Below, piece after piece: positions 3,359-29,914 of a DNA stretch of 60,319 nucleotides; position 1 is the stretch's first letter; every line of letters starts with the position of its first letter. The stretch comes from Candidatus Methanoperedens nitratireducens (lineage in GTDB: Archaea > Halobacteriota > Methanosarcinia > Methanosarcinales > Methanoperedenaceae), in contig NZ_JMIY01000001.1 in the NCBI RefSeq assembly GCF_000685155.1, positions 542,402-602,720 on the forward strand, written 5' to 3'. Made by a program: the position numbers and the translations under genes. The notes below the pieces were generated by a model. It did no database searches. It was not told the origin of the DNA and was given only the letters and a program-made list of their open reading frames with translations.

Positions 3359-4324
3359 ATGCAAGTAAAATCAAGTATAATACTTCTCGCATTAACTGGA
3401 ATTGTTTTGTTTTTGATTCCACAAGTGAGCGCTTCTGAGAACTCATGTATTGATTGCCATAAGACATTGACTCCTTTTATTGAGGTTCAAAAACAGTTCA
3501 ACCAGATCAGAATCCAGCATCTTGAAAAAAACGTAGCCTGCTCTCTTCAATGCCATGAGGATAGGGTAAGACAGCTTGCGACCGCCAATTACCAGCAGTG
3601 GTCAGAATCGGTTCATGCTCTAAAAGGAGTTACATGTGAGGTCTGCCATGGGGGGGATCCAAAACAGGCTACCAAGGAGAGGGCACATACAGGTTTTAAG
3701 AACATAACAGACCCACAGAGCCCCCTATATTATACCAATGTACCTGAAACATGTGGTAACTGCCATCCCAAAGAGCTGGATAATTTTGAGGGCAGTAAAC
3801 ATTACCAGAAGCTTGAGGCATTGAAACTTGCCCCGACATGCACAACATGCCATGCGCCACATACGTTCAGGGTACTGAATCCTGAAGAATTTAGAAAATT
3901 CTGCGGCAATTGCCACTCTGTGTATACAAAGGTAGCACCTTATGATATCCCTGTAAGAGCCGAGTATATGCTTGAACAGGTGAATAAGTTGAAGTTCAGG
4001 ATAGATATGGCCAATCAGGATATTTTCTGGGCAAAGAAGAATGGAACTGATGTAACAGAGGCACAGGGGTATGTTGATAGCGCACTGAAAAAGCTTGGCA
4101 ACATGGCGATTCTGTGGCATGAATTCAATCTCACACATTTTGAGGATGAACTGGATTCAGCCAATAGGGAAGTAAAGAAAGCTGGAGATATTGTAGGACC
4201 TGATACTACCCCGGCTAAACCAGCTCCTGCCCAGGCACCAGGATTTACAGGTTTATCAGTGATGGTCTCATTGCTGGCTGTATTGTATATAATAAGAAAG
4301 AGATTAAGGATTGGAAGATTTTAA
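3359..4324 (+). CDS. Membrane-anchored multiheme cytochrome c (6 heme sites)
   Basis: Secreted electron-transfer protein of 321 residues. It begins with a signal peptide (about 1-25, ending near VSAS) and ends with a Pro/Ala-rich linker and a single transmembrane helix (about 298-314), so it is probably anchored outside the cell membrane. Five CxxCH motifs (CIDCH, CEVCH, CGNCH, CTTCH, CGNCH) and one CxxxCH (CSLQCH) can bind six c-type hemes. Between the last heme and the anchor lies a heme-free helical region (about 205-280), as in helical multiheme cytochromes of the NrfA/HAO class. No CxxCK active-site motif is present, so it is not a nitrite reductase of the NrfA type. It heads the operon and has a close paralogue at 6929. 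Confidence 0.85.
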   Translation: MQVKSSIILLALTGIVLFLIPQVSASENSCIDCHKTLTPFIEVQKQFNQIRIQHLEKNVACSLQCHEDRVRQLATANYQQWSESVHALKGVTCEVCHGGDPKQATKERAHTGFKNITDPQSPLYYTNVPETCGNCHPKELDNFEGSKHYQKLEALKLAPTCTTCHAPHTFRVLNPEEFRKFCGNCHSVYTKVAPYDIPVRAEYMLEQVNKLKFRIDMANQDIFWAKKNGTDVTEAQGYVDSALKKLGNMAILWHEFNLTHFEDELDSANREVKKAGDIVGPDTTPAKPAPAQAPGFTGLSVMVSLLAVLYIIRKRLRIGRF

Positions 4325-4341
4325 AAAGGTGAAAAGCAATA

Positions 4342-4791
4342 ATGCAGCCGCATATTAAAAGAGCATTCACATTACTGGCGATTGCGATAATTGTTTTTAT
4401 CGTTATTAGATCACTGGTTGTACCGGATTCATTCGGACAGTATGGCTGGTACAGGGGCGACTCTGTTGTTGATAATAGAAACTTTCCCGTAGAATATGCC
4501 GGGTCAGCGAGTTGTGGGGAGGAGAACTGCCATAAAACACTATATTCGATATGGGAAGATTCCAGACATAAAACTGTAAATTGTGAAACCTGTCATGGTC
4601 CTTCTGAGAAGCATGTCAGTAATGTCAGGATAATGCCGCAGCCTGCAAATGAATCAAGGGATTTCTGCGGTCTGTGCCATTTCAGACAGACAGCCAGACC
4701 TGAGGATTTTTCACAGATTGATCCAGAGACACATGGTCAAAATCTAAGATGCGCATACTGCCATAATCCCCACAAACCGTGGTTTGTATGA
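4342..4791 (+). CDS. Tetraheme cytochrome c with N-terminal membrane anchor
   Basis: A 149-residue cytochrome with one N-terminal hydrophobic helix (about 9-28) that probably stays as an anchor. It has three CxxCH motifs (CETCH, CGLCH, CAYCH) and one expanded site, CGEENCH, that could attach a fourth heme. Small NapC-like or quinol-linked cytochromes have similar layout. It lies 17 bases after the previous cytochrome and 14 bases before the ferredoxin start, so it is part of the same transcript and probably passes electrons between the iron-sulfur subunit and the larger cytochromes (inference). Confidence 0.8.
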   Translation: MQPHIKRAFTLLAIAIIVFIVIRSLVVPDSFGQYGWYRGDSVVDNRNFPVEYAGSASCGEENCHKTLYSIWEDSRHKTVNCETCHGPSEKHVSNVRIMPQPANESRDFCGLCHFRQTARPEDFSQIDPETHGQNLRCAYCHNPHKPWFV

Positions 4792-4805
4792 ACGGAGACC
4801 TTACT

Positions 4806-5609
4806 ATGAGCATATCAAGGCGAGAATTTACCAGGATCGGATGCAGGGTTATTATTGGAGCGGCAGCAGGCACTGCTATCATCGAATCCATTGTTAAAAA
4901 CAGCCTTGCATCTGAGGACAAAAAAGGGGAGTATGACTGGAATGAGCATTACTGGGGATTTGTGGTCGATACCACAAAATGCATAGGCTGCGGACGGTGT
5001 GCAAATGCCTGTAAGCTTGAGAACCATGTGCCATTTGATGAACACCTATATAGAACATGGGTCGAGAGATACAGGGTGCTAAAAAAGGAGGAGGTAAAAA
5101 TAGATTCACCCAATGGAGGTATCGATGGGTTTACTAATGATATCCCGAAAGAGGATATTAAAAAGGCTTTTTATGTTCCTAAATTATGCAACCACTGCGA
5201 TCATCCACCCTGCGTTCAGGTCTGTCCGGTAGGGGCTACATATCTTACAGAGGATGGGGTTGTTTTGATAGATTATGACTACTGCATTGGCTGTCGGTAC
5301 TGTATCCAGGGCTGCCCGTATGGGGCAAGATACTTCCTGGCAGAAGAGACCCCGCATCACAAACCGCATTCCGTCCTGGGTGGAGGCGTAGCCGATAAAT
5401 GCACATGGTGCTACCACAGGATTACAAAAGGTCTTTTGCCTGCATGCGTTCAGGCATGCCCTGCTGGAGCAAGGATATTCGGAGATCTTAAAGACCCTGA
5501 TAGTGCAGTTAATAAAATACTGGATAAAGAGAGAATCAATGTTCTAAAACCCGATCTGGGAACAAGGCCTAAAGCATATTATATTGGATTGGACAGGGAG
5601 GTACGATGA
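4806..5609 (+). CDS. Tat-exported four-cluster [4Fe-4S] ferredoxin subunit (NrfC/DmsB/HybA type)
   Basis: Electron-transfer subunit with sixteen cysteines in four ferredoxin motifs: CIGCGRCANACK, CNHCDHPPCVQVCP, CIGCRYCIQGCP and CTWCYHR...CVQACP. This is the arrangement of NrfC, DmsB and HybA, which bind four [4Fe-4S] clusters. The N-terminus carries a twin-arginine signal (SRREFTRIG followed by a hydrophobic stretch), so the folded protein should be exported. I start it at the ATG at 4806 because GGAG lies at 4794-4797 and because the earlier ATG at 4779 would overlap the upstream gene and push the RR motif inward. It overlaps the NrfD-like gene by 4 bases, indicating translational coupling and a two-subunit complex. 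Confidence 0.9.
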   Translation: MSISRREFTRIGCRVIIGAAAGTAIIESIVKNSLASEDKKGEYDWNEHYWGFVVDTTKCIGCGRCANACKLENHVPFDEHLYRTWVERYRVLKKEEVKIDSPNGGIDGFTNDIPKEDIKKAFYVPKLCNHCDHPPCVQVCPVGATYLTEDGVVLIDYDYCIGCRYCIQGCPYGARYFLAEETPHHKPHSVLGGGVADKCTWCYHRITKGLLPACVQACPAGARIFGDLKDPDSAVNKILDKERINVLKPDLGTRPKAYYIGLDREVR

Positions 5610-6775
5610 CAGAGGGTCTAATCTGGGGATATGTGTATCCCAATGAGGCTGAAGTTCAGTGGAGTATACTGATAGTACTGTATCCCTATATCACAGGACT
5701 TGTTGCCGGTGCCTTTATAGCATCATCGCTGTACCATGTTTTCGGAAAAAAAGAAATTAAACCTGTTGCCAGGTTTGCCCTTCTTACTGCTTTAGCTTTC
5801 CTGCTAGTAGCCACTATGCCTCTTGTTGCGCATCTCGGACATCCTGAAAGAGGTGTTCAGATCATGTTTACGCCCCATCTTACTTCTGCAATGTCGGGAT
5901 TTGGTTATATATATTCATTTTATCTTATTGTTGTTGTGCTTGAGATCTGGCTCTCTTTCAGGGAGGACATTGTTAAAAAGGCACTCAGTTCCAGGGGATT
6001 GAAAGAGCTATTATACTCAGGGCTTGCTCTTTTCTCATACGATATCTCTGAGCGAGCATTACATGAGGATGAGAAACTCGCAAGGAGACTTGCCATCATA
6101 GGTATTCCATCTGCCGCTTTCCTGCACGGGTATGTGGGTTTTATCTTTGGCGGAATTAAAGCCAATCCCTGGTGGTCCACACCACTTATGCCGATCATAT
6201 TCCTTATGTCCGCAATTGTATCAGGTATTGCGCTTTTGATCCTGCTCTATATTGTGGCCATGAAGATCAGAAGACATGCTATAGATCATAGCTGCCTTTA
6301 TTCGCTGGCCCAGTATCTATGGGTTTTCTTGATTTTTGATGTGGTGCTGGAACTTCTTGAGGTTGTCAGTATGAAGTATGAGTCGCTTGAAGAGATCGAA
6401 ATAATCAACATACTTCTATCAGAGAAAATAGCTACTACTTTCTACGGCGTGCAACTGACACTGGGTATCTTTGTTCCATTCGTGCTTCTCCTTCTTGTGG
6501 GTATTATGAAGAACCATGATACCCTGAAGACAATAATGATAGCAGTTTCTTCCACTCTGGTTGTGATAGGTGTGTTCGCCATGCGATGGAACGTGGTTAT
6601 AGGAGGACAGGAGATTTCAAAGAGTCTTAGCGGAACTCTTACATATGTACCGGTTTTCTTCGGTATGGAAGGAGTTTTGCCTGCGGTTGTGATATTTACA
6701 ATCCCATTCATTATCCTGCTGGTCTTAACCTATATCCTGCCGCCATGGAAAGATATGGAAGAAGCTACAGAGTAA
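5606..6775 (+). CDS. nrfD: NrfD/PsrC-type polytopic membrane subunit
   Basis: Integral membrane protein of 389 residues with about ten hydrophobic helices, matching the NrfD/PsrC family that exchanges electrons with the quinone pool and hands them to a four-cluster ferredoxin partner. The family hallmarks I can see are the hydrophobic pattern, the PLVAHLGHPERG stretch between helices 2 and 3, and the FLHGYVGFIFGGIKANPWW segment. The ATG overlaps the ferredoxin stop (ATGA). No molybdopterin subunit or NrfA is near; instead four multiheme cytochromes surround the pair. This suggests a menaquinol:cytochrome c oxidoreductase. The direction of electron flow is an inference. Confidence 0.88.
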   Translation: MTEGLIWGYVYPNEAEVQWSILIVLYPYITGLVAGAFIASSLYHVFGKKEIKPVARFALLTALAFLLVATMPLVAHLGHPERGVQIMFTPHLTSAMSGFGYIYSFYLIVVVLEIWLSFREDIVKKALSSRGLKELLYSGLALFSYDISERALHEDEKLARRLAIIGIPSAAFLHGYVGFIFGGIKANPWWSTPLMPIIFLMSAIVSGIALLILLYIVAMKIRRHAIDHSCLYSLAQYLWVFLIFDVVLELLEVVSMKYESLEEIEIINILLSEKIATTFYGVQLTLGIFVPFVLLLLVGIMKNHDTLKTIMIAVSSTLVVIGVFAMRWNVVIGGQEISKSLSGTLTYVPVFFGMEGVLPAVVIFTIPFIILLVLTYILPPWKDMEEATE

Positions 6776-6928
6776 TTTCGTAAGGTATTTATTGCATCGA
6801 GTTCATCAATATATTTTAACACGGCCGGACTAAAAATAGATACTAAGTCTTGGCAGCAGGATAGGATACCAGGATATTTAAAAATAAAAGGCGGGTAATT
6901 GGAAATAGAGTTATGACGGAGAACGAAC
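6776..6928. other. Spacer with possible internal promoter
   Basis: A 153-base gap between the NrfD-like gene and the second cytochrome pair. An A/T-rich element (TATTTAAAAATAAA, about 6877-6890) could be a TATA box giving separate transcription of the downstream cytochromes. No gene is visible. Confidence 0.35.
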
Positions 6929-7906
6929 ATGTTTTCAAGAACTAAAAAATTAAACTCGTATAATCGATATTTAATAACCGTATATATTTCTGTGATATTA
7001 TATTTTATTGCTATTATTGCTCCAGTGGGAGCGGTACATCTTGATGTTCTTAAGAATTCATGCGTAGACTGCCACACAACATTATCTCCTTTTACGGATG
7101 AGCAGAGACGGCTTAACGAAATAAGACTAAACCATACTGTGAGAGATATATCCTGCTCACTTGAATGCCATGAAGATGTCATCAGAAGGACAGCTTCTGA
7201 TAATTTCCAGCAGTGGTCGGATTCAGACCATTCAAAATATCATGTCACATGTGATGCATGCCATGGTGGGAACCCTGATGTAAAAACAGAAGCAGAGGCC
7301 CATGCTTCAATGAAGGATGTAAATGATCCAGACAGCACTATCTATTTCAAGAATATCCCTGATACCTGTGGAAAATGCCATGCTGAGGAGCTTGAGCATT
7401 TCAGGGATACCATGCATTATCAGAGATTAAGATCTACAGCCAGCGGTCCTTCATGTATTACATGCCACCAGCCTCACAGCTTCAAGGTGCTCAAGTCATC
7501 AGAACTAACTGCTCTGTGCAGTGTCTGCCATAATCCAAAAGATAAGATTGCAGTGGCAAGCGTTCCACAGGATGCAAAACGAGCCCTTGAGAAACAGAAA
7601 GAATTTCAGGAAGAACTCCTGAAAGCAAAAAATGCTGTCGCTGGAGTAAAAGCAGCAGGAAGGGATGTCTCTTCGGCCCAGATGGATCTGGATAGAGCGA
7701 TATCAGTAATGAATGATATTCCCTCTACATGGCATGGGTTTAATCTAAAGGACTTTGATGAGCAGATTCAAAATGGGATTGACTGGGCTAAAAAAGCCCA
7801 ATATAAGACATCTGATATCGAGCCGGCTGCACCGGCTGCGCCAGGCCCGGGGATAATCATGGCTTTCGCGATCCTTATAATGATTTACTTAATGAGAAAG
7901 CGGTGA
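6929..7906 (+). CDS. Membrane-anchored multiheme cytochrome c, paralogue of the gene at 3359
   Basis: A 325-residue cytochrome with the same plan as the gene at 3359: N-terminal signal helix (about 15-33), five CxxCH sites (CVDCH, CDACH, CGKCH, CITCH, CSVCH) plus one CxxxCH (CSLECH), a heme-free helical hairpin (about 205-285), a Pro/Ala linker and a C-terminal transmembrane helix (about 305-321). Shared stretches include the FQQW/YQQW segment and CHGG after the third heme. The two copies flank the ferredoxin/NrfD pair, so the cluster seems to have grown by gene duplication. The stop codon overlaps the next start by 4 bases. Confidence 0.85.
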   Translation: MFSRTKKLNSYNRYLITVYISVILYFIAIIAPVGAVHLDVLKNSCVDCHTTLSPFTDEQRRLNEIRLNHTVRDISCSLECHEDVIRRTASDNFQQWSDSDHSKYHVTCDACHGGNPDVKTEAEAHASMKDVNDPDSTIYFKNIPDTCGKCHAEELEHFRDTMHYQRLRSTASGPSCITCHQPHSFKVLKSSELTALCSVCHNPKDKIAVASVPQDAKRALEKQKEFQEELLKAKNAVAGVKAAGRDVSSAQMDLDRAISVMNDIPSTWHGFNLKDFDEQIQNGIDWAKKAQYKTSDIEPAAPAAPGPGIIMAFAILIMIYLMRKR

Positions 7907-9003
7907 GATATCAAATGGCACTTATAGGAATGATTAAGAATTTTGCTTCAACATATAAGCTACCGATTGCGGTTATATCGATCGTTCTATTCTCAACAGT
8001 ATTCGTAGTCTCTGAAAAGGCACTTGATATCACAGAGAACCCTTCATTTTGCGGAAAGAACTGTCACATTATGAGACCTTATTATGACTCCTGGCGAACT
8101 TCATCACATAACGATGTTGCATGTGTTGAGTGCCATTACGAGCCGGGATTGATAGGCCATGCTAAAGGTAAGATAAACGGGCTTATACAATTCTATAATT
8201 ACCAGACTACAGTTGAAGAATATTCAGGACGATTGTATGCAAAGGTCATGGATAAGAACTGTCTTACCTGTCATGAAAAGCGTATCTATTCTTCTGATAT
8301 TGGTTATATGGGTGTCAATTTCAGCCACAAAAATCATTTACTTCAGCCTAAAAGGGGGGTTGGAGTAACATGCACAAGCTGTCATTCCATGCTTGTGATC
8401 GGTATGAAGGAGCATCAATCTGTTACCGATCCATCATGTAACCAGTGTCATCCGAACATCGTCAATCAGGATGTCGGACATATAGTAGTGACCACATCAA
8501 GCTGTTTTACCTGTCATTTCAGGGATGTGTCGGGCAATACCTCTATATCAGGCTGTCCATCCTGTCACGGACCGCCTAAAGAAACACATAAGAATTATAC
8601 AAACTTTAACCATACAAGCCATGTTAACAAGGGGTATGAATGCGTGACATGCCACACCAATATATCAACAGGTGCAAATGATATCGTTCTCAAGAACAAG
8701 TGCTATTCATGTCATAGTAGCAGGGATAGGGTAGAGAGATATGATGACTTCAGTTTCCTGCATAAAAAACACGTCACGACTAATAAGATCGCATGTTACG
8801 AATGCCATTCAAATGTAAAGCATATCCCGACTATAAAAGAGAATCTATGCACCACCTGCCACAGTCAGGAACACCCCGGCGACTGGTTGACCACACATAA
8901 GAAAGAGGTTTTAATAGGTAAAGTATGTAGTAACTGCCATCAACCAAGATTCTGCTCAGACTGCCATGCCACAGGAGTAGCAAGCGGTAAGAAAGAAAAA
9001 TAG
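7903..9003 (+). CDS. NapC/NirT-like multiheme cytochrome c with 13 heme sites
   Basis: A 366-residue cytochrome with one N-terminal membrane helix (about 20-40) followed by a CGKNCH site and CVECH. This start resembles the NapC/NirT family, which takes electrons from quinol. Eleven further CxxCH motifs follow up to the C-terminus (CLTCH, CTSCH, CNQCH, CFTCH, CPSCH, CVTCH, CYSCH, CYECH, CTTCH, CSNCH, CSDCH), giving 13 possible hemes. GTG is the likely start, overlapping the previous stop as GTGA; an ATG at 7915 is the alternative. The product looks like a quinol-linked head fused to an electron wire that would carry charge away from the membrane (inference). Confidence 0.85.
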   Translation: MRYQMALIGMIKNFASTYKLPIAVISIVLFSTVFVVSEKALDITENPSFCGKNCHIMRPYYDSWRTSSHNDVACVECHYEPGLIGHAKGKINGLIQFYNYQTTVEEYSGRLYAKVMDKNCLTCHEKRIYSSDIGYMGVNFSHKNHLLQPKRGVGVTCTSCHSMLVIGMKEHQSVTDPSCNQCHPNIVNQDVGHIVVTTSSCFTCHFRDVSGNTSISGCPSCHGPPKETHKNYTNFNHTSHVNKGYECVTCHTNISTGANDIVLKNKCYSCHSSRDRVERYDDFSFLHKKHVTTNKIACYECHSNVKHIPTIKENLCTTCHSQEHPGDWLTTHKKEVLIGKVCSNCHQPRFCSDCHATGVASGKKEK

Positions 9004-25527: not shown

Positions 25528-28500
25528 ATGAGTAGGATAGGAAGTATTATAAAATCGTATAGCAGCAAGAACTATTTAATACATATATTTTTAATTTTTG
25601 CATTGTTTGCATCGTTAATTTTTATAACCATAGTTCCAGTAGAGGCTACACCAGGTAATTACACCGGTGACTCTTCAACTTGTAAGACATGCCATTCTGC
25701 CCAGTATGCATTATGGGCAAATAGCACGCATACCAGTAAACTGATTACACGCGATGATGCTATTGCAAGAGGTTATCCCAATCCGCCTGGTGGCTATAGC
25801 TGGGAAAATGTGAGCTTAGTGATAGGCAGCAAATGGAAGATACGTTATGTGAACGATACTGGTTATATCATCACGACAGGCGGCAAGAACCAGTTCAATG
25901 TAGATGATCAAATATGGACTGACTACAATAAGGACGCAATCAAGAAATACAACTGCGGTCACTGCCATGGCACTGGTTATCTCAGTAACGTTGCCGATAC
26001 GGTCAAAGAACCATTCAGGACATTGAGAAATCAGGGCCAGATCCCGGATGGTGTGTATGACAACAGTTCGACACCAGGCTTTAAGGGATACTGGGCTGAG
26101 AACAGTGTGGGTTGTGAAGCCTGCCATGGACCTGGAGAAGAGCATGTAAACAGTCCATCCACATTGAACATCAGGAATGCCTCGGTAGTCAGGAATACTC
26201 CGCAGATCTGCGGTGACTGTCACAGCAGGCCTCTTGCCAGTAAATACGGTGAATATGATGATTTCAAACCGTACCCTTATGGTGTCAACGATTCTCTTCT
26301 GATTGAAACCCTGACCGATAATAGCCCGATGCCAACTGTAAATTACTCCCTAACCGGTGGGCATCATGAACAATGGGAAGACTTGAAAGCCAGCGGTCAT
26401 GCTGCCAATGCTGTAAATTGTGCTAATTGCCATGGCGGACATGCTATTTCAGATCAGGCGTATGCAGGTGGACCAACTGGTAAGATAAAGTTCAACAATG
26501 GTACTGTTTATCCAGCAGCCGTAAAACAGAGCTGTACTGATTGTCATGCATCAGAATTACCAAAACATGGGTTATACAATGACAATTCTAAGTGTATAAG
26601 CTGCCACATGCCGCAAAACAGGAAATCATCAAATAAGATCGATCTGCGGTCGCACTGGTTCGATATAACAGCGTTGAGGGATAACAAGAACGCTGGAGTG
26701 CACGCGGCAAATTTGCCCGCATTAGAGAGTTTTGCACCGCAGTCATGCAATACATGTCACAAAGCCACACCAGGTAATTTCACAGGTGACTCATCGACCT
26801 GTAAGGTATGCCATAAAGATGAGTATGCTCTCTGGGCCAATACCACGCATACCAGTAAATTGATTACACGGGATGATGCCATGGCACGAGGATATCCCAA
26901 TCCACCGGGTGGCTATTCCTGGGAAAATGTAAGCTTTGTTATCGGCAGCAAGTGGAAGATCAGATATGTTAACGATACTGGTTATATCGTCACGACAGGC
27001 GGCAAGAACCAGTTCAATATAGATGATCAAATATGGACAGACTACAATAAGGATACGATCAAGAAATACAACTGCGGTCACTGCCATGGCACTGGGTATC
27101 TCAGTAACGTTACCGATACGATCAAAGAACCATTCAGGACATTGAGAAATCAGGGCCAGATCCCGGATGGTGTGTATGACAACAGTTTGACACCAGGCTT
27201 TAAGGGATACTGGGCTGAGAACAGTGTGGGTTGTGAAGCCTGTCATGGAAATGGAGGAGATCACGTACTCAGTCCATCCACATTGAACATCAGGAATGCC
27301 TCGGTAGTCAGGAATACTCCGCAAATCTGCGGTGACTGTCACAGCAGGCCTCTTGCCAGTAAATACGGTGAATATGATGATTTCAAACCGTACCCTTATG
27401 GTGTCAACGATTCTCTTCTGAGTGAAACCCTGACCGATGATAGCCCGATGCCAACTGTAGATTACTCCAAAACTGGTGGACATCATGAACAATGGGAAGA
27501 TTTGAAAGCCAGCGGTCATGCTGCCAATGCTGTAAGTTGTGCTAATTGCCATGGCGGACATGCTATTTCAGATCAGGCGTATGCAGGTGGACCAACTGGT
27601 AAGATAAAGTTCAACAATGGTACTGTTTATCCAGCAGCTGTCAGCCAGACATGTACGATCTGTCATGCACTTGAACTGCCAAAACATGGCTATTACACTG
27701 TTAATTCTGAGTGTATAAGCTGCCACATGCCGCAAAACAGGAAATCATCAAATAAGATCGATCTGCGGTCACACTGGTTCGATGCAAATGCGATGAAAAA
27801 TAATAAGAACACCGGAGTACATGCGCTCAGCTTCGCAACATTACAGAATATTGATGAATCTTGTGTTAACTGTCACAGTTCAGCCAATCTCAGCAAGCCA
27901 ATAGACACAGCAAGTGCAGGCGTACATAAAGACATCAATAAATCAGAAGGTATTGGCCTCCTGAAAAGCTCAGACTGCAAATCATGTCATTATGGTGCTT
28001 CAACCAGCAGTATTCTCAGCCGTAACTGCGATGCATGTCATGTAGACCAAGTAATAACGTCTCCGAAAGTGGACGAGCACACAGACAGAAGCAAGGACGT
28101 AGCAGTTACAGCGAGCTGTGCACTGTGCCACAACAACAGTATCAATAAATTCAAGTATAGTAATAATGCAAGCGTAAGCCATTACGGTACTGCTAATTCT
28201 CTAATTAATACCTCAAACTGTATCGACTGTCATAACGGTGCTTATACCGGGAATGCAAGCTGGGGCTCACCAGTAAATATCTCGACGAGCAGTAAGAGAC
28301 AGCATACTGAAACACAGACCAATCAGTGCGACTCATGCCACAAAGATTCAAGTGTTCCGACATTAGCTGCCGTAACTTTCCACAACTCAAGTGTGAAAAC
28401 CGCATCTCCACCGCCAGTGAATCAGAATTTGGGTTTGTACGATACCCGTATAGCATTTGTACCAAGTGAAACATGCAAAGGTTGTCATGTACAACCTCAA

Positions 28501-29853
28501 AACACACATCACTTGATGTTAGGCCCTAACGGAAATACAAACCTGGGTTGTTTGGATTGTCACCCAACACAGGGTACTTATCCCAGCCAATATCAGTATA
28601 TTGAAAGGAGTTGTCAGAACTGTCACAACGGTACAGCATTCTGGGCAAATCCTGCTGTCAACCTGGCACAAATTAGACCACCTGGCAGACCACATCATAA
28701 CACGACAAAGAACTCTGCATCAAATCTGGCGGTACAGGCTGCATATTGGGCAATAGATAGACAGTGCAATAAGTGTCACGGCAGTAGTATACTGGCAAAC
28801 TATAATGATGGACATTACTATCCATCATACGATACATCTCTTGTAACTCCCCTTGCTGATTACAAGGTGAAAAACGCAACCACTGGAAAAGAATGGGGCG
28901 GCTGTAGAGCGTGCCATAATAGTGGACCAGATAACATTCTCAACAACCGTGACACGCATCATAACGCAACAAGCGGTATGCAAGGCAGAAAATGTACCTA
29001 TTGCCACGTTGGCAATCCTTCATCACCAAGAACTGATGGAAGTGCAAGCCCGCTGAGAATTTACCTGACCGATGAATACGGCCTTGGATGGGACACCACT
29101 AATCTGCATATGGAACTCAGAAATTCAACAATATTGAATGCTGGCGATGCGGTTAATGGCACAGGATGTCAACAGTGTCATAGTGTAGTATCGCTTCACA
29201 ACATCCAGTATAACTATGTACAAGGCGGCGGACCTGCTGGTTATGGTCACATAAACAATAACGCAGATTGCAATGTTTGCCATGCGTTCTGGGATGCAGG
29301 CATGGATAATCCGTTCTTAGGATCTGTTGCTCCAGGTATGTCCAGCGTGACTCCAGATACATTGACTCCAGGTGTAGCCTCAGAAGTGACCATCACAGGC
29401 ACCAACTTTGTGCAGGAAGGATACACGACTAATGTGTTGGTAGACGGGAATGCTATGGCTGTAGTATCTGTTACAGATACACAAATAGAGGTGACTATTC
29501 CAGCATTGAGTGCAGGCGTTCACAGTATCCAGCTTGAGAAAGGCGGCGTGACGAGCAAATTGTCTTCACTGGCAGTTATAGAACCAGTAGATGTTGTAAC
29601 AGCGAAGCTGGCCTCAGGAAAGATAACTGTTACCGGTACAGGGTTCAGTGTTCAGCCTGATCCAGCATTCAGCGATCTTGGCGTATTCGTTACGAAGAAG
29701 GGTCAAGAAACTACATTCAAGGCTGAGGTCATCAGCTGGTCTGATACTGAGATTGTAGTCTCTGGCTCTGGAGCAAGCACAGGAAACCTGCTGGAAGTCA
29801 AAGCATTGAATGGTGAAGACTCAACATCAATATCGGGTGGAGGCAAAAAATAA
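25528..29853 (+). CDS. Giant secreted multiheme cytochrome c, 29 heme sites, with C-terminal TIG/IPT-like domains
   Basis: A 1,441-residue extracellular cytochrome. It begins with a signal peptide (hydrophobic about 18-38, ending VEATPG). Two tandem octaheme modules follow (about 42-414 and 415-785), each with eight CxxCH sites in the same order (for example CGHCHGTGY, CEACHG, CGDCHSRPLASKY, CANCHGGH, CISCHMPQNR). A third region (about 786-1265) has thirteen more CxxCH. The total is 29 sites by my count. The end (about 1268-1441) is heme-free, with TIG/IPT-type immunoglobulin-like strands (ITGTNF, IEVTIPALSAGVHSIQLE). No C-terminal anchor or S-layer domain is seen, so it is probably released or bound to other surface proteins. 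Its role is probably long-range electron transfer to an outside acceptor or partner (inference). Confidence 0.9.
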   Translation: MSRIGSIIKSYSSKNYLIHIFLIFALFASLIFITIVPVEATPGNYTGDSSTCKTCHSAQYALWANSTHTSKLITRDDAIARGYPNPPGGYSWENVSLVIGSKWKIRYVNDTGYIITTGGKNQFNVDDQIWTDYNKDAIKKYNCGHCHGTGYLSNVADTVKEPFRTLRNQGQIPDGVYDNSSTPGFKGYWAENSVGCEACHGPGEEHVNSPSTLNIRNASVVRNTPQICGDCHSRPLASKYGEYDDFKPYPYGVNDSLLIETLTDNSPMPTVNYSLTGGHHEQWEDLKASGHAANAVNCANCHGGHAISDQAYAGGPTGKIKFNNGTVYPAAVKQSCTDCHASELPKHGLYNDNSKCISCHMPQNRKSSNKIDLRSHWFDITALRDNKNAGVHAANLPALESFAPQSCNTCHKATPGNFTGDSSTCKVCHKDEYALWANTTHTSKLITRDDAMARGYPNPPGGYSWENVSFVIGSKWKIRYVNDTGYIVTTGGKNQFNIDDQIWTDYNKDTIKKYNCGHCHGTGYLSNVTDTIKEPFRTLRNQGQIPDGVYDNSLTPGFKGYWAENSVGCEACHGNGGDHVLSPSTLNIRNASVVRNTPQICGDCHSRPLASKYGEYDDFKPYPYGVNDSLLSETLTDDSPMPTVDYSKTGGHHEQWEDLKASGHAANAVSCANCHGGHAISDQAYAGGPTGKIKFNNGTVYPAAVSQTCTICHALELPKHGYYTVNSECISCHMPQNRKSSNKIDLRSHWFDANAMKNNKNTGVHALSFATLQNIDESCVNCHSSANLSKPIDTASAGVHKDINKSEGIGLLKSSDCKSCHYGASTSSILSRNCDACHVDQVITSPKVDEHTDRSKDVAVTASCALCHNNSINKFKYSNNASVSHYGTANSLINTSNCIDCHNGAYTGNASWGSPVNISTSSKRQHTETQTNQCDSCHKDSSVPTLAAVTFHNSSVKTASPPPVNQNLGLYDTRIAFVPSETCKGCHVQPQNTHHLMLGPNGNTNLGCLDCHPTQGTYPSQYQYIERSCQNCHNGTAFWANPAVNLAQIRPPGRPHHNTTKNSASNLAVQAAYWAIDRQCNKCHGSSILANYNDGHYYPSYDTSLVTPLADYKVKNATTGKEWGGCRACHNSGPDNILNNRDTHHNATSGMQGRKCTYCHVGNPSSPRTDGSASPLRIYLTDEYGLGWDTTNLHMELRNSTILNAGDAVNGTGCQQCHSVVSLHNIQYNYVQGGGPAGYGHINNNADCNVCHAFWDAGMDNPFLGSVAPGMSSVTPDTLTPGVASEVTITGTNFVQEGYTTNVLVDGNAMAVVSVTDTQIEVTIPALSAGVHSIQLEKGGVTSKLSSLAVIEPVDVVTAKLASGKITVTGTGFSVQPDPAFSDLGVFVTKKGQETTFKAEVISWSDTEIVVSGSGASTGNLLEVKALNGEDSTSISGGGKK
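25651..27888 (+). repeat. Tandem duplication of the octaheme module, period 1,119 bp
   Basis: The same positions repeat at a constant distance of 1,119 bases (373 codons), for example CCAGGTAATT at 25651 and 26770, and AACTGCGGTC at 25951 and 27070. Long stretches are identical at the nucleotide level, including silent positions, for instance around 25951-26080 and 27070-27200. This points to a recent duplication or continuing gene conversion. Confidence 0.9.
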
Positions 29854-29876
29854 ATAAGCCAAAATATATATGTGGG

Positions 29877-29914
29877 AAAAGAAGAGATTAATAACTCTTC
29901 TTTTCATTTTTTTT
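29877..29914 (+). terminator. Hairpin terminator after the giant cytochrome gene
   Basis: AAAAGAAGAG and CTCTTCTTTT form a 10-bp stem around an 8-base A/T loop (29887-29894), followed by a run of T (TTTTCATTTTTTTTT). It begins 24 bases after the stop codon. Confidence 0.75.

Follow-up and report, generated by a model that had tools for sequence, protein, structure and literature searches.

The filament-forming extracellular cytochrome OmcZ of Geobacter sulfurreducens loses its C-terminal tail to OzpA, and the filament structure does not contain this tail (PMC9473688). Cleavage follows the sequence FGNSS (PMC11208441, PMC9473688), and heme 1 is located at the N-terminal interface between subunits (PMC9473688). 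OmcZ has already been published from anaerobic methanotrophic (ANME) archaea and from Borgs (PMC9012536, PMC10542353, PMC12246660, PMC11208441). Here we analyze a gene of Candidatus Methanoperedens nitratireducens (Methanoperedenaceae, ANME-2d), located in a stretch of 60,319 nucleotides (NZ_JMIY01000001.1, positions 542,402 to 602,720 of the forward strand; hereafter the window, in whose numbering positions are given), which encodes an OmcZ domain preceded by an arm of 21 further hemes. To our knowledge, it is not settled how cytochrome nanowires are initiated, terminated and linked to the cell envelope. One polypeptide covalently joining a filament subunit to a heme module would make these questions testable in a single protein, in organisms that oxidize methane through extracellular electron transfer.

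A full-length OmcZ homologue behind a 21-heme arm

The gene is a single open reading frame (25528-29853, + strand) with an ATG start and no internal stops, encoding 1,441 aa. Its 29 CxxCH motifs, the number given by the original prediction, account for all 58 cysteines; 2,000 shufflings of the residues yielded a mean of 0.11 and a maximum of 2 such motifs, and no CXnCH motif with n = 3-15 was present in the protein. A signal peptide without membrane anchor had also been proposed, and this agrees with what we found. Residues 1-40 (25528..25647, +) are a probable signal peptide, judged by eye from a hydrophobic stretch (residues ~17-40) ending in VEA and followed by TPGN, and no hydrophobic segment was seen at the C-terminus, which is hydrophilic. 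The fusion protein had no Pfam match to an S-layer domain.

The C-terminal third of the protein (~residues 957-1441), with eight hemes and two TIG/Ig domains, is on sequence evidence a full-length OmcZ homologue. A phmmer search of the PDB matched residues 946-1438 to 7lq5 (E 1.4e-12) and to 8d9m (E 4.2e-39), a chain which contains the sequence of 7lq5 and which we take to be OmcZ. The 7lq5 entry is OmcZ according to PMC11208441. This homology supports the earlier proposal of a secreted, extracellular conductive element. The comparison with OmcS/OmcE-type or archaeal extracellular cytochrome nanowire (ECN) filaments suggested at the same time was not borne out, as the PDB entries that phmmer matched at a cut-off of E 0.01 were all OmcZ; a more distant relation may still exist. 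Within the OmcZ core (residues 957-1262; 28396..29313, +), which carries its eight hemes at residues 983-1252, nine histidines outside the heme motifs were invariant in 18/18 OmcZ rows, enough for eight bis-histidine hemes.

The last heme motif lies at residue 1248, and the protein is heme-free from residue 1263 to 1441. This tail (29314..29850, +) matched Pfam TIG (E 8e-10), and AlphaFold modeled it as two tandem beta-sandwich domains with a predicted local distance difference test score (pLDDT) of 87.9, as expected from the Ig-like C-terminus first noticed in the sequence. Structure comparison paired it with the CAMTA1 TIG domain (Z 11.3) and the plexin IPT tandem (Z 12.4), and the Foldseek and VIA-align rows contained common beta-sandwich proteins only. 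The aligned counterpart of the OzpA cleavage site is NPFLGSVAPGM (29308..29340, +), where cleavage is putative. By analogy with OmcZ, the tail would probably be removed after export and heme attachment. A docking role for the TIG domains, as initially proposed, is not our first choice, since OmcZ ends in the same two domains and loses them to OzpA.

The N-terminal 21 hemes are, by sequence comparison, arranged as two near-identical OcwA-like octaheme modules and a pentaheme module. The octaheme modules, both of which had been recognized from the sequence, are M1 (residues 41-412; 25648..26763, +; eight CxxCH) and M2 (residues 413-783; 26764..27876, +). They are 87% identical (318/370 aa, 984/1113 bp), with a synonymous divergence (dS) of 0.29 and a ratio of nonsynonymous to synonymous divergence (dN/dS) of 0.30. 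A profile of 13 M-module relatives (A4) matched 6i5b (E 8.3e-30) and 6qvm (E 1.2e-23), as well as MccA and NrfA-type enzymes. The 6i5b entry is OcwA, in which a His-His pair sits above active-site heme 2 (PMC6703420); the 681-aa 6qvm is probably OmhA of Carboxydothermus ferrireducens, judging from its length and name. His-His pair 279/280 of M1 (26362..26367, +) aligned with an OcwA His-His pair, which by position arithmetic would be HH281/282 above that heme, and pair 652/653 (27481-27486, +) is its counterpart in M2. The first histidine of the pair was invariant in 13/13 family rows and the second in 11/13. Standalone M relatives are octahemes of ~414-487 aa, and all four that were scanned end in a PGF-CTERM-like tail, one passing the Pfam cut-off and three falling just below it. 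Membrane anchoring of the fusion through such a tail was rejected, since the fusion does not carry one.

The pentaheme module, L5 (residues 784-955; 27877..28392, +), has five hemes at residues 817-938. These and five other histidines were invariant in 6/6 rows, enough for the five L5 hemes. The 13 hemes previously assigned to one region are thus present, divided between L5 and the OmcZ domain. L5-related modules occur in 26/34 genomes of the family, many within giant cytochromes, and two very large cytochromes that contain L5-type heme modules were observed as open frames of 5,615 aa (G006:C49) and 5,323 aa (G005:C24). On another contig, G030:C75, the gene of a standalone OmcZ precedes that of an OzpA homologue, after which come genes for a 36-heme protein with L5 at its C-terminus and for a 15-heme protein. 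PMC10874420 reports upregulation on electrodes of an OmcZ cluster that includes proteins of 37 and 15 hemes, and by its description this looks like the arrangement of G030:C75. We considered L5 as a Rosetta stone for a giant cytochrome feeding OmcZ; this was weakened by L5-type modules in OmcZ-less genomes and by the fact that the L5 relatives scoring highest against the fusion, G008:C234 and G030:C15, differ from those that neighbour OmcZ genes.

Occurrence of the fusion and match to the resident OmcZ

The source genome (3.2 Mb, 99.8% complete) carries the window copy intact within a 721-kb contig; named relatives of the gene come from Candidatus Methanoperedens nitroreducens Mnv1, Methanosarcinales archaeon METP1 and Candidatus Methanoperedens MnB_21. 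The same M-L5-OmcZ order was found in METP1 (L007) and Mnv1 (L008), each with one octaheme module; among the three fusions the M duplication was seen only in that of the window. The METP1 fusion is cut off at its contig end. The Mnv1 fusion (L008:2956-6253) is split by a frame change into overlapping frames of 731 and 393 aa, reflecting a frameshift, decay or sequencing error. The suspicion that the architecture was new held in part. OmcZ, M-type and L5-type modules are each already known separately and the novelty lies in their fusion, which recurs in these two other Methanoperedens assemblies. Our search of open-access literature yielded no description of a fusion between OmcZ and further cytochrome modules; supplements, subscription papers and preprints lay outside that search, and a prior mention is possible.

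A census of OmcZ cores (E 1e-20, split Mnv1 gene counted once) detected them in 8/34 family genomes at 24 loci, seven of which were N-terminally extended (frames >700 aa). Four extensions are multiheme arms, with total hemes of 29 (window), 28 (G004), 21 (METP1, cut by the contig end) and 17+4 (Mnv1, split); the other three are Ig-like or Pro/Thr stalks with at most one extra heme. All seven join near one point, the mature N-terminus of OmcZ (established for the split Mnv1 gene by pairwise match). In the window gene the fusion reads TASPPPVNQNLGLYD where the standalone protein reads VVPPPPVNQNLGLYD, and DNA identity between the two begins approximately at the join and stops past the stop codon. 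At the level of the order, OmcZ cores were present in 23/185 genomes; 15 of these genomes lie outside the family, and their 17 loci, with frames of 355-523 aa, included no extended one. A phylum-wide sample gave 4/392 genomes with an OmcZ core, and three scans of viral contigs gave no relatives.

Several OmcZ loci had further features. At L042 (G016:C33) and L045 (G004:C21), several OmcZ paralogues form arrays that also include OzpA homologues. At L042, an OzpA homologue is directly followed by an 813-aa OmcZ with a Pro/Thr-rich stalk; this OmcZ shares 90.6% identity with a standalone OmcZ in the cluster. At L044:5725-10239, a 1,505-aa OmcZ extended on its N-terminal side by ~1,080 aa of Ig-like repeats adjoins an OzpA homologue.

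A standalone OmcZ of the source genome (L039:8564-10075, 503 aa) lies ~50 kb from the fusion gene and is followed by an OzpA-type subtilase, the OzpA layout. Beside this pair we noted a 1,562-aa protein with five N-terminal hemes and many Ig-like repeats (L039:1881-6569). The fused OmcZ domain proved to be 81-87% identical (about 84%) to this standalone protein, and that of METP1 77-81% identical to its own. Between the three fusions, in contrast, the OmcZ parts were 37-49% identical, whereas M was 75-84% and L5 90% identical. DNA identity of METP1 and Mnv1 dropped at the module border, being 81-93% over L5 and 40-65% over the OmcZ part, and the last ~350 comparable bases of the METP1 fusion were 97-100% identical to the METP1 standalone gene. 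The dS was 0.26 between the fused and own OmcZ of the window genome and 1.53 between the fused OmcZ domains of window and METP1. For the same pair of fusions it was 1.33-1.37 in M and 0.28 in L5, indicating that the history of L5 between the species is different from, and more recent than, that of M. The fusion genes form in this sense a three-part mosaic (M, L5, OmcZ).

A tree of 24 OmcZ domains, with test groups named before the tree but after the identity table, placed 5/7 extended domains, with starred support, each as sister to a standalone OmcZ from the same genome: those of the window, METP1, the C-terminal piece of Mnv1, the 1511-aa protein of G004 and the 813-aa protein of G016. A single clade of the three M-L5-OmcZ fusions was rejected (p-AU 2.7e-12). 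This grouping suggests, without proving, that the fused OmcZ domain assembles with the resident OmcZ filament. Such own-genome matching offers a computable sign of possible co-assembly.

Possible role in OmcZ filaments

We judge it an even call that the protein is a heterotypic OmcZ, that is, a filament-compatible subunit bearing a 21-heme arm, and most likely an end-piece. After export and heme attachment, the OmcZ domain would join filaments that the cell builds from its own standalone OmcZ. Since OmcZ heme 1 is at the N-terminal subunit interface, the arm-bearing subunit would most likely sit at one filament end. If its heme chain is continuous, the arm could link the filament electrically to cell-surface cytochromes, as a base connector, or to an acceptor reduced at the octaheme modules, as a reductase head. 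The fusion may thus plug the OmcZ filament into something else. A more specific version is possible but doubtful: a dedicated nanowire end-piece able to cap only one end of the OmcZ filament, with its arm wiring the filament either to a reductase or to the cell surface, and with repeated replacement of the OmcZ domain preserving its fit to the resident filament.

Several results weigh against an assembling end-piece. No OzpA homologue was found in the 60-kb window or at L043, L049 and L050, where the other multiheme fusions lie (the last two being short contigs), and we therefore call the gene an OmcZ-domain fusion and not an OmcZ operon. The split Mnv1 fusion is only 44-52% identical to its own standalone OmcZ, and 2/7 extended domains (G016, 1312 aa; Mnv1, 1505 aa) did not group with a standalone OmcZ of their genome. 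Gene conversion between OmcZ paralogues can be neutral, and it is not confined to fusions, since in G004 two standalone OmcZ likewise pair as sisters within one genome. Genomes lacking OmcZ contain L5-type modules as well. Finally, the AlphaFold model of M2-L5-OmcZ (alignment A3, 7 rows) reached a pLDDT of 26.7 and was discarded.

The protein might instead be a large secreted cytochrome that never enters filaments, its OmcZ domain serving as the octaheme conductor of a monomeric surface or matrix cytochrome (a reductase or charge store). We regard this as possible but doubtful. Giant multiheme cytochromes with common modules are frequent in these genomes, a retained tail might block polymerization, and the gene has no adjoining OzpA. 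On the other hand, the fused OmcZ domain follows the resident filament subunit and not its own arm, the tail and cleavage region are kept here as in other extended OmcZ proteins, and two of the latter, the 813-aa protein of L042 and the 1505-aa protein of L044, do adjoin an OzpA homologue. Incorporation anywhere along the filament, mounting OcwA-like reductase modules from which electrons exit along its length, would fit the match of the M modules to OcwA, a cell-surface terminal reductase, with the His-His pair aligned, and the Ig-like or Pro/Thr stalks that other extended OmcZ carry at the same position. Such side decoration is unlikely in our view, as an arm close to the N-terminal heme 1 interface should hinder the next subunit. 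That the gene is a decaying or assembly-born chimera without function, as the broken Mnv1 copy could indicate, is highly improbable: the window copy is intact on its long contig, the same module order recurs in independent assemblies, and dN/dS was 0.11-0.39 in the eight pairs computed.

Surroundings and comparison with described systems

Genes near it in the window encode, among others, aRF1 and a class III PhaC. The gene looks monocistronic, because the two nearest neighbours tested encode an ArsR-type helix-turn-helix protein and aRF1 and a terminator-like hairpin with a T run follows (29876..29905, +); the hairpin is weak evidence, four such structures occurring in the region where shuffles expect 4.0. 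Elsewhere in the window (3359-9003), a cluster of cytochromes with 5, 3, 5 and 12 hemes also includes a 4Fe-4S protein and a membrane protein of the NrfD type. This cluster resembles the electrode-upregulated 5-, 5- and 12-heme set of PMC10542353, a lead only.

Geobacter sulfurreducens OmcZ (7lq5, 8d9m) and its Methanoperedens and Borg homologues share with the fusion the eight-heme core, the invariant histidines and the two C-terminal Ig domains. Two standalone OmcZ of 626 and 638 aa (L042:6003-7880 and L046:7705-9618) have ~100 extra residues past the Ig pair, and the Black Borg OmcZ precursor has extra beta domains (PMC11208441). The fusion differs from Geobacter OmcZ by its 21-heme N-terminal arm, which OmcZ lacks, and by a canonical CxxCH at heme 1, where the Geobacter protein has CX14CH; PMC11208441 reports CxxCH at this position in a subset of the Borg proteins. 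OmcS/OmcE-type filaments, for which no sequence match to the fusion was found, are polymeric multiheme cytochromes too, and differ from OmcZ in fold and in heme ligation across subunits (PMC9473688).

The profile match to OcwA of Thermincola potens and to 6qvm covers most of the M module, including the His-His pair. The M modules are named OcwA-like, and not OcwA, because each has eight hemes and not the nine, two of them five-coordinate at the active site, of OcwA; moreover, the match to the OcwA chain ends at ~residue 348, save for a weak second stretch, and M occurs as a tandem pair inside the fusion. The giant ANME cytochromes (MHC-A/B/C, PMC9012536) and the 37- and 15-heme proteins (PMC10874420) have L5-type modules in common with the fusion. 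In those systems, as described there, OmcZ and the giant cytochromes are encoded by separate genes.

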